From the NCBI GenBank assembly GCA_028870665.1, contig JAGWPB010000005.1, positions 1 through 64,000 of the forward strand: a DNA stretch of 64,000 nt, read 5' to 3'. The translations under genes and the position numbers were made by a program. The stretch is from Lysobacteraceae bacterium. Its GTDB lineage: Bacteria; Pseudomonadota; Gammaproteobacteria; Xanthomonadales; Rhodanobacteraceae. Positions 53,393 through 55,373 of this stretch are shown one piece after another (the stretch's first letter is position 1; every line of letters begins with the position of its first letter). The notes under the pieces were generated by a model, which searched no databases, was not told where the DNA came from, and saw nothing but the letters and a program-made list of their open reading frames with translations.

Positions 53393-54055
53393 ATGAACGC
53401 GCTCCCGGAAAGTCATGCTGCGGTGCGCCAATCGGTGCTTGCCGCGGCGCGCGATGTGCGTCTGCTCGCCGTCAGCAAGACCCGGCCCGCCACGGCACTG
53501 CGTGCGCTGGCGGCACAGGGCCAGCGCGCCTTCGGCGAGAACTACGTGCAGGAAGCGTTGGCCAAGCAGCGCGCACTGGTCGATCTCGATCTCGAATGGC
53601 ACCTGATCGGGCCGCTGCAATCGAACAAGTGCCGTGAGGTCGCGTTGCATTTCGACTGGCTGGAAAGCCTCGACCGCGAAAAGTTGATCGCGCCGCTGGA
53701 CCGCCACCGACCCGCCGACCGCGCCCCGCTGAACGTGCTGATCCAGGTCAACATCGACGACGAGGACAGCAAGTCCGGCTGCGCGCCGGAAGACGTTTCG
53801 GCACTGGCCGCCGCCGTCACCGCTGCTCCGCGACTGCAACTGCGCGGATTGATGGCGATCCCCGCGCCGCATGCGGATCCGTCGCAGCGCCGCGCAGCCT
53901 TCCGGCGCATGCGTGCCCTGTTCGATGCCCTGCGCGCCGAACATCCCGATATCGATACGCTGTCGATGGGCATGTCCGACGACTTCGAACTGGCGATCGC
54001 CGAGGGCGCCACCGAGGTGCGGATCGGCAGCGCGCTGTTCGGGCCGCGCGAGTGA
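53393..54055 (+). CDS. PLP homeostasis protein YggS
   Basis: The 220-residue protein is an alanine-racemase-like barrel of the YggS/PLPBP family. The PLP lysine is Lys29 in LLAVSKTRPA; AFGENYVQEA, WHLIGPLQSNK, VNIDDEDSKSG and the C-terminal MGMSDDFELAIAEG...VRIGSALFG are all typical. It buffers pyridoxal phosphate in the cytoplasm and affects amino-acid pools. Next to pilT and before proC-yggT, the order is as in Pseudomonas. A -17-spaced promoter precedes it. A heptamer array begins five bases after its stop. Confidence 0.95.
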   Translation: MNALPESHAAVRQSVLAAARDVRLLAVSKTRPATALRALAAQGQRAFGENYVQEALAKQRALVDLDLEWHLIGPLQSNKCREVALHFDWLESLDREKLIAPLDRHRPADRAPLNVLIQVNIDDEDSKSGCAPEDVSALAAAVTAAPRLQLRGLMAIPAPHADPSQRRAAFRRMRALFDALRAEHPDIDTLSMGMSDDFELAIAEGATEVRIGSALFGPRE

Positions 54056-54060
54056 ATCGC

Positions 54061-54123
54061 GGGACTCGGGACTCGGGACTCGGGACTCGGGACTCGGGAC
54101 TCGGGACTCGGGACTCGGGACTC
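54061..54123 (+). repeat. Heptamer tandem repeat (GGGACTC)9
   Basis: Nine perfect copies of GGGACTC lie immediately after yggS. A degenerate tenth copy leads into an inverted-repeat element. Seven is not a multiple of three, so each repeat array is read in all three frames and the encoded peptide is meaningless. Confidence 0.95.
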
Positions 54124-54134
54124 GGATTCAAGCT

Positions 54135-54236
54135 TGTCACCCTGAGCGTAGCGAAGGGTCTGTCTCGCCGGCAGGCGGGTGAGCGCTGCCGAAACGTGGC
54201 CGCGCGGAAAGATCCTTCACTGCGTTCAGGATGACA
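54135..54236. repeat. REP-like imperfect inverted repeat
   Basis: The 27-base arms at 54135-54161 and 54210-54236 (reverse complement) match at 22 of 27 positions; all five differences are transitions and three would form G-U pairs in one RNA strand. The arm sequence begins TGTCACCCTGAGCG and resembles a dispersed palindromic element I recall from many bacterial genomes. The 48-base centre is unrelated sequence. Confidence 0.75.
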
Positions 54237-54241
54237 GCCTG

Positions 54242-54409
54242 CTCTTTCCTCTTTCCTCTTTCCTCTTTCCTCTTTCCTCTTTCCTCTTTCCTCTTTCCTC
54301 TTTCCTCTTTCCTCTTTCCTCTTTCCTCTTTCCTCTTTCCGCTTTCCGCTTTCCGCTTTCCGCTTTCCGCTCCCCGCTCCCCGCTCCCCGCTCCCCGCTC
54401 CCCGCTCCC
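54242..54409 (+). repeat. Composite heptamer array: (CTCTTTC)14 (CGCTTTC)4 (CGCTCCC)6
   Basis: Twenty-four heptamers run in one unbroken register: fourteen CTCTTTC, then four CGCTTTC, then six CGCTCCC. Each block differs from the next by one or two bases. Degenerate units continue to about 54442. The strand is purely pyrimidine over the first block and could form triplex or other non-B structure. Any protein read through it would be repetitive and is not credible. Confidence 0.95.
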
Positions 54410-54463
54410 CGCTCTCCTCGCTCCCCCGCTTCCCGCTCCCCACTGCCGTCCCTGATAAGCCTC

Positions 54464-54469
54464 TAGAAT
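54464..54469 (+). promoter_or_regulatory. -10-like TAGAAT upstream of proC
   Basis: TAGAAT lies 37 bases before the proC ATG, just downstream of the heptamer array. The -35 position falls in the degenerate end of the array, so variation in repeat number would change the upstream context of this promoter. Confidence 0.4.
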
Positions 54470-54506
54470 CAGGAGTTCGGATATCTACGGATCACTGGCG
54501 CCCAGC

Positions 54507-55373
54507 ATGCACTCGCATCCACCCGCGTCCCGCGTCCCGAGCCCCGAGCCCCGATCGGGACCGATTGCCTTCCTCGGCGGCGGCAACATGGCGCGCGCGC
54601 TGATCAGCGGCCTGCTGCGCAGCGGTACGTCGCCCGCGTCGCTGCGGGTTTCCGAGCCGCGCCCCGAAGCACGCCGCGAACTGGCGCAGGGCTTCGGCAT
54701 CGCCACCCATGCGGACAATGCCGAGGCGGCGCGTGGCGCCGCACTGTGGGTGCTGGCGGTCAAGCCGCAGGTGCTGCACACGGTCTGCACGGCGCTGGCG
54801 CCGCTGGCGCAGACCGGACAGCCGCTGGTGCTGTCGATCGCCGCGGGCATCCGCAGCGACCAGATCGAGCGCTGGCTGGGTGGTGATCTCGCGCTGGTGC
54901 GCGCCATGCCCAACACACCCGCGCTGCTCGGCGCCGGAGCCACCGGGCTGCATGCCAACGCCAAGGTTGATGACGCCGGGCGCGCGCTGATCGAACGGGT
55001 GCTGGGCGCGGTCGGCGTCACCTGCTGGATCGACGACGAGGCGCAGATGGACGTCGTGACCGCGCTCTCGGGATCCGGACCGGCGTATTTTTTCCTGCTC
55101 GTCGAAGCGCTGGAACAGGCCGCCGTCGCCCACGGCCTGCCGCGCGAGGTGGCGCGACGGCTCGCGTCCCAGACCTGTTTCGGCGCCGGACGCATGCTGC
55201 TCGAGGACGGCGCCACGGCCGGCGAGCTTCGACAGCGCGTCACCTCACCGGGCGGCACCACCGCCGCGGCGCTGGAACGCTTCGCCGCGGGCGGCTTCGC
55301 GGCGCTGGTTGCCGAGAGCCTGGCCGCTGCCACTCGGCGTGGCGCCGAGCTTTCGGCGCTGGCGCAGGACTGA
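54507..55373 (+). CDS. proC: Pyrroline-5-carboxylate reductase
   Basis: The 288-residue enzyme makes proline from pyrroline-5-carboxylate with NAD(P)H. The Rossmann core starts at IAFLGGGNMARALISGL; VKPQV, AMPNTPA and the ALSGSGPAYFFLLVEAL signature with LASQTCFGAGRMLLE follow. About 18 residues precede the core, where E. coli ProC has about four; residues 6-17 are encoded by five heptamers of the CCCGAGC type. The upstream array ends only about 65 bases before the ATG. It is followed by yggT after 4 bp. Confidence 0.94.
   Translation: MHSHPPASRVPSPEPRSGPIAFLGGGNMARALISGLLRSGTSPASLRVSEPRPEARRELAQGFGIATHADNAEAARGAALWVLAVKPQVLHTVCTALAPLAQTGQPLVLSIAAGIRSDQIERWLGGDLALVRAMPNTPALLGAGATGLHANAKVDDAGRALIERVLGAVGVTCWIDDEAQMDVVTALSGSGPAYFFLLVEALEQAAVAHGLPREVARRLASQTCFGAGRMLLEDGATAGELRQRVTSPGGTTAAALERFAAGGFAALVAESLAAATRRGAELSALAQD

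Follow-up and report, generated by a model that had tools for sequence, protein, structure and literature searches.

Heptanucleotide arrays around a dispersed palindromic element in the yggS-proC spacer of a Lysobacteraceae bacterium

The window analyzed here is a stretch of 64,000 nucleotides from the draft genome of a Lysobacteraceae bacterium (GCA_028870665.1, contig JAGWPB010000005.1), in which two neighbouring genes are separated by a spacer of 451 bp, counted from the stop codon of the first to the ATG of the second. We take the upstream gene to be yggS and the downstream gene to be proC, both names following the original prediction for this DNA rather than a family search. The spacer contains arrays of seven-base units on both sides of a palindromic element of about 108 bp (Table 1), and our interest was directed at the origin of this composite. 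Genomes, loci and contigs are designated by G, L and C numbers, respectively, G000 being the window's own genome and the other G numbers sister genomes or genomes of the order.

Table 1. Position of the features in and around the yggS-proC spacer (coordinates of the window).
Feature	Position	Strand	Remark
Upstream gene, presumably yggS	53393..54055	+	
Left array (GGGACTC)9	54061-54123 (period-7 run 54060..54125)	+	G-rich on + strand
G-quadruplex motif, left array	54061-54119	+	
Element, left end GGATTCAA	54124..54131	+	
Element, core	54132..54239	+	about 108 bp; a CCTGARCGNAGYGAAGG-like motif in both of its inverted arms
Element, right end TGCTCTTTC	54240..54248	+	unit 1 of the right array is formed by its last seven bases
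CTCTTTC x14	54242..54339	+	pure pyrimidine
CGCTTTC x4	54340..54367	+	
CGCTCCC x6	54368..54409	+	
G-quadruplex motif, CGCTCCC block	54372-54410	-	
Degenerate heptamer tail of the right array	54410..54441	+	Tandem Repeats Finder
Candidate proC promoter CACTGC-N17-TAGAAT	54441..54469	+	comparison with 8 sister spacers
Downstream gene, presumably proC	54507..55373	+	
Third heptamer run (CCCGCGT, CCCGAGC)	54522..54554	+	within proC coding start
G-quadruplex motif, proC start	54522-54552	-	

The array counts of the original prediction, nine GGGACTC units on the left and blocks of 14, four and six units on the right, proved to be exact base for base. As a run of period seven the left array starts at the fifth base past the yggS stop, and the right array ends at the -35 box of the candidate proC promoter. 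In the whole window the spacer arrays reached Tandem Repeats Finder scores of 116-226, with 78 as the next best score, and 294,233 bases sampled from the same genome contained five period-7 runs of at least three units, the longest of them with 4.1 units. If 14, 4 and 6 units of three kinds were placed in random order, the chance of obtaining exactly three blocks would be 1.5e-8. Further arrays, which the original prediction had suggested looking for, were found for one unit and not for the other: three consecutive GGGANTC units are dispersed over nine of the 13 genus genomes, with 49 overlapping pattern hits in G000, but three or more CTCTTTC units occurred nowhere except in the window among the same 13 genomes.

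The inverted repeat that had been noted between the two arrays is real, though imperfect; positions 54132-54239 pair from end to end when folded as DNA (z = -4.2), and it turned out to be a dispersed palindromic element. A search for inverted repeats with exact seeds of nine bases reported none, because the palindrome is imperfect, and the copies were found with a covariance model built from six copies and containing 43 base pairs. This model gave six matches above 99 bits, one of 53 bits and one of 33 bits in G000, and it matched the element in four of the 13 genus genomes (G000, G003, G005, G008). Among Rfam families only three weak matches were obtained, all below the gathering scores. The core is preceded by GGATTC or GGAATC in each of the 17 copies scoring 85 bits or higher. 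The motif in each arm might by itself fold into a small hairpin, yet a single arm folds at z = -1.25 only. Pair 6-12 of this arm hairpin is G-C in the left arms of all 17 copies, and in the right arms it is G-C in 12, A-T in four and broken in one, a pattern in keeping with one hairpin per arm, though a single inherited change may account for it.

Seven-base periodicity is a frequent property of the ends of the element. The flanks were counted in two sets, set A with 16 copies (without L120) and set B with all 17 copies that score at least 85 bits, whose edge was drawn two bases further out, a shift that puts two runs of exactly 14 bp under the threshold; L126 (67 bits, cut by a contig start) and the matches of about 32-53 bits were left out of both. 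On the left, 12 of 16 copies in set A and 10 of 17 in set B have a run of period seven, 14 bp or longer, no more than 60 bp away; on the right, with a limit of 200 bp, such a run accompanies 14 of 16 and 15 of 17 copies, respectively. Stretches drawn at random from the genome sample showed one in 0.8% (60 bp) and 2.6% (200 bp), and since this control was drawn from all positions, coding ones included, and not from intergenic positions alone, the enrichment at the flanks is somewhat overstated. Read along the strand that enters the palindrome, units on the left are rich in G and those on the right rich in C, so that the composite is mirrored; L108, a match of 53 bits, has two heptamer units on its left and none seen on its right. 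A right end of the GGATGAC type running into TGCT was found in 14 of the 17 copies, and the exact TGCTCTTTC end in six of them, the window included; five of the 16 other strong copies possess this end without a CTCTTTC array. These right-end counts are identical in a copy set with L126 swapped for L120. In the window CTCTTTC is both the heptamer of the TGCTCTTTC end and unit 1 of the 14-unit block, and judged by its letters this end may well have been the seed of the right array.

Comparison of element copies between species revealed that the arrays change in number as well as in kind of unit. Between species, the flanks of the copies are 86-96% identical, and for this reason the sites are regarded as orthologous; L120 was left out of this comparison, and L126 was included in the matching of flanks. 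At the first site, where the match extends over both flanks, the left units numbered one in G000, nine in G003, 12 in G008 and two in G005, counts which include outer degenerate units with at least 4/7 matches. At a second site each species has a different unit throughout its array: G000 carries at least four units of GGGACTC and G003 carries GGGAATC x14, both at contig starts, whereas the array of G008 is GGAACTC x4. At a third site (L105, L116, L121) the counts were 3, 5 and 3. An array in G003 with GGGACTC and GGGATTC blocks (G003:C29:183-322) has a block structure like that of the window. Slippage with a local spread of point changes, as had been proposed for the window from its block structure, was supported by these differences at orthologous copies, and the sequences support slippage or unequal exchange with homogenization as the account of both the turnover and the blocks.

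For the history of the spacer itself 11 of the 13 genus spacers were read, one genome having no ProC match and one locus (L100) no yggS. The palindrome was present in one of these 11 spacers only, that of the window's species. In G010 a (GACTCGG)8 array follows the yggS stop without a palindrome, and likewise about 2.7 units are found past this stop in G004 and G005 and fewer than two units (by eye) in the closest sister, G008; the spacers of G001, G002, G007, G009 and G011 contained no run of this kind. At the position matching the CGCTCCC block of the window, (GCTCCCG)2 occurs in G004, G005 and G006. Outside this spacer the palindrome is present in G005 and G008, at sites which they have in common with the window's species, and a single gain between yggS and proC is on that account simpler than repeated loss. 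In 80 loci of ProC relatives, which have yggS beside proC in part of the cases only and one of which (L033) shows a run of N, spacer runs of at least two units were confined to two genus loci, L010 and L011, and to the weaker case of L032 (2.3 units of another heptamer).

Taken together, we consider it probable that the spacer is a composite of heptamer minisatellites, shaped by slippage or unequal exchange, and of a dispersed palindrome which entered the spacer and seeded an array. Accordingly composed, it would consist of two parts evolving by different means. Minisatellites of the GGGNATC class would grow, shrink and homogenize by replication slippage or unequal exchange, and short arrays at this site would predate the element, as they are present in sister species without a palindrome. 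Into this spacer the element of about 108 bp would have entered in the lineage of the window's species, bringing terminal heptamers of its own, and its right end TGCTCTTTC would subsequently have been amplified into the CTCTTTC x14 block, which would grade via CGCTTTC into CGCTCCC beside the proC promoter. Arrival by transposition, slippage as the process, the element end as the seed and near-neutrality for proC are what we infer for this history.

Several observations weigh against it. A clean empty site was not found, and because the spacer of the closest sister, G008, has diverged, a loss in that species is still conceivable. A cognate REP-associated tyrosine transposase (RAYT) flanked by its own repetitive extragenic palindromic (REP) sequence was sought and not found, and no transposase could be tied to the palindrome. 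Within 60 bp, a right period-7 run of at least 14 bp is present in only eight of 17 copies, and L113 and L124 lack a right-hand run of 14 bp altogether, L124 being cut by a contig end. Two-unit runs were also yielded by periods 4-6 (left one to three, right two to seven of 16 copies), as is expected at that shortness, and none by periods 8-11. The second of the compared sites is linked by its right flank alone, with two of its three loci at contig starts. Every species is represented by one genome, and all variation in unit count is hence variation between species. The assembly, finally, is a draft of 112 contigs, four of which (C14, C23, C26, C92) end inside GGGACTC arrays, and counts near 100 bp may for this reason be limited by the assembler.

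How the palindrome and the arrays came together can be read differently. It might have inserted into existing arrays as its target, or might have spread by recombination between arrays, without any seed; arrays without a palindrome at yggS-proC in G004, G005 and G010 speak for this, as do GGGANTC arrays in nine of 13 genus genomes compared with the palindrome in only four. This reading is nevertheless rather doubtful, since the right unit beside the palindrome matches the TGCTCTTTC end, an end which elsewhere occurs without a CTCTTTC array, and since such arrays were found nowhere else in the 13 genomes. A farther-reaching version of the seed account, by which the heptamer arrays are the element's own ends, the short heptamers at both termini of a mobile palindrome starting new minisatellites wherever it landed and its hairpin stalling the replication fork and driving expansion, is regarded by us as unlikely. 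If true, the ends of the element would be the source and the spreading route of some seven-base arrays of these bacteria. That the arrays were collapsed, expanded or joined into chimeras during short-read assembly is very improbable: contig ends in GGGACTC arrays and the fragmented draft would be compatible with it, but the order of yggS and proC is the same in the sister assemblies, some of which show heptamer arrays recurring at that place, G001, a genome of five contigs, also has GGGACTC arrays of three to four units, and the longest pure run in the window measures 99 bp. As a side observation, the assembly seems to break at heptamer arrays, and the count of long ones may be too low.

Other readings would assign a function to the arrays. 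H-DNA, an intramolecular triplex, requires mirror symmetry. The original prediction had suggested a triplex-like structure for the polypyrimidine tract, and 54242-54340, the only tract of at least 15 pyrimidines in 53991-54590, is indeed 99 bp of pure C and T; however, it is a poor mirror repeat, its best arms reaching 80% over 10 bases and 75% over 20, and the array is restricted to the window's species among the 13 genomes. The triplex potential must thus be called weak, and H-DNA as a functional feature is scarcely credible. By their sequence the G-runs fit G-quadruplex motifs better, three of the five such motifs in the 64 kb lying in the spacer and the proC start. For the (GGGACTC)9 strand an ordinary hairpin is predicted as well (-7.6 kcal/mol, z = -5.2), and no fold was predicted for the CTCTTTC strand. 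These motifs, together with the position of the right array at the candidate promoter, could be taken to indicate a regulatory switch, in which the length of the array upstream of the -35 box or a G-quadruplex on either strand would tune proC-yggT expression. A promoter just downstream of the arrays had likewise been predicted; both of its boxes are kept in similar form in five of eight sister spacers, but in the other three (L009 of the closest sister, L097, L098) TAGAAT alone is kept. The region upstream of the candidate promoter varies widely between sister species, and for related heptamers no role in gene regulation could be identified, the genes concerned being of mixed function (Rehm et al., 2015, PMC4692102, as far as drawn on here), which makes such a switch improbable.

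Heptameric repeats of this kind have been described before. Rehm et al. (2015; PMC4692102, cited here from parts of the paper) reported GGGNATC or GGGGA(C/T)T repeats with G-quadruplex properties from Xanthomonas and Nostoc, with convergent pairs of arrays in Xanthomonas numbering 70 in one genome and 75 in another. The repeats were associated with genes across functional classes and generally not with mobile elements, Calothrix heptanucleotides were mentioned, and the role of the heptamers was left to be found. Judged by sequence, the arrays of the window belong to the GGGNATC class: (GGGACTC)9 is a tandem array of the GGGANTN form, for which at least two units are demanded, and four G-tracts lie on the + strand at 54061-54119, although all nine units read GGGACTC and none is the GGGAATC of which the strict definition for Xanthomonas demands at least one. 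Convergent pairs on opposite strands are common to both, and a sister array (L117) consists of GGGAATC x14. In contrast, the unit in the window is GGGACTC with CTCTTTC, CGCTTTC and CGCTCCC on the other side, and a dispersed palindrome lies between the arrays, of which the parts of that paper considered here make no mention.

Heptamers of the same class, with GGGAATC, GGGATTC and CGATTCC units, also serve as loci in multilocus variable-number tandem-repeat analysis of Xanthomonas (PMC8002079, PMC6459536, both cited in part). Locus Xe_09 of X. euvesicatoria contains GGGATTT, GGGATTC and GGGAATC units and has seven alleles with 6-18 repeats; allele ranges of the heptamer loci of this species are, for instance, 6-18 and 5-12 repeats (PMC8002079), and GGGAATC and GGGATTC loci are known from X. 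vasicola (PMC6459536). These are other loci in other species, and no palindrome is mentioned in the portions of these papers cited. Arrays seeded by a palindromic element were not found described in the open-access literature, subscription papers lying mostly outside this search. Heptamers also occur as the short tandemly repeated repetitive (STRR) sequences of heterocystous cyanobacteria. These are likewise seven-base tandem repeats, but they differ in unit and host. Known, then, are heptamer arrays of the Xanthomonas kind; new would be the composite, as far as its seeding by a palindrome can be deduced. Heptamers are abundant in xanthomonads and some cyanobacteria, and here one array can, as we infer, be traced to the end of an element. 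The locus is mainly a view of how heptamer arrays arise, and as sister copies show turnover in the number and sequence of units, the birth and homogenization of such arrays become testable.

The palindrome itself resembles a REPIN (a doublet of REP sequences) or a small miniature inverted-repeat transposable element (MITE) of non-autonomous kind. With REPINs (PMC3116915, cited in part) it shares two inverted arms in a long hairpin, a dispersed occurrence and non-autonomy, but it has few copies, six strong ones in G000, and it ends in heptamer arrays. Identity with REPINs was considered and rejected: the two-arm hairpin is present with its 43 pairs and z = -4.2, but the palindrome is not filed as a REPIN because a cognate RAYT was tested for and not found. 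The sole Y1_Tnp match of G000 lies on C33, a contig of 5,168 bp without an arm motif at up to two mismatches, and G005 and G008, which possess the palindrome, gave no Y1_Tnp match in assemblies that are 72% and 87% complete. Single arms were not clearly enriched, three being found in the sample compared with 1.4 in shuffles. With regard to the terminal inverted repeats and the target-site duplication of MITEs, the element has inverted arms, but its ends merge into heptamers, and a target-site duplication is for that reason indistinguishable from array units. The RAYT-like Y1_Tnp gene on C33 (L101, G000:C33:335-661) is followed downstream by two copies of a short repeat, GTGAACCTGACCCCGTTCCT.

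Searches across the order covered 398 genomes, of which G000, G006 and G010 are the only genus members, and consequently they say little on the genus. A heptamer plus arm pattern was found in five of the 398 genomes and the exact arm in three. Of the four pattern genomes other than G000, three look like chance by their letters, and G389 has GTCATCCTGAG without a heptamer repeat. By these strict patterns, the composite seems to be infrequent in the order. Tandem repeats of about 28 bp, of the CGACCGAAGGGAGTCCCTTTTCGGG kind, were seen between the palindrome and the right-hand heptamers in sister species (L115, L116, L118, L124). The arm motif CCTGAGCGTAGCGAAGGG (54141-54158) is also contained in the 36-bp Bpu-like consensus of Cycas mitochondrial genomes (PMC8297867, cited in part), the only match to the arm motif spellings or the peptide in the open-access literature, and this likeness is probably chance or a common hairpin design.

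The third heptamer run, which is absent from the original prediction, lies downstream of the proC ATG, and from there the frame is open through heptamer-coded residues up to the conserved GGGNM. Seven sister loci (L009, L010, L011, L012, L093, L095, L096) likewise have an open frame through heptamers, the N-terminus of ProC being heptamer-encoded in them as in the window, with peptides such as SRVPSPESR, and the frame is kept despite the seven-base unit; further in-frame starts lie upstream in some loci. Judging from these frames, the heptamers at the proC start are probably translated, and as seven bases do not make whole codons, adding or losing a single unit at this point would put the reading frame out of register. 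Relatives of ProC were found among the kin of Rhodanobacter, Xanthomonas and Lysobacter, the nearest being that of the metagenome-assembled genome ZJ1.bin62 (86%).
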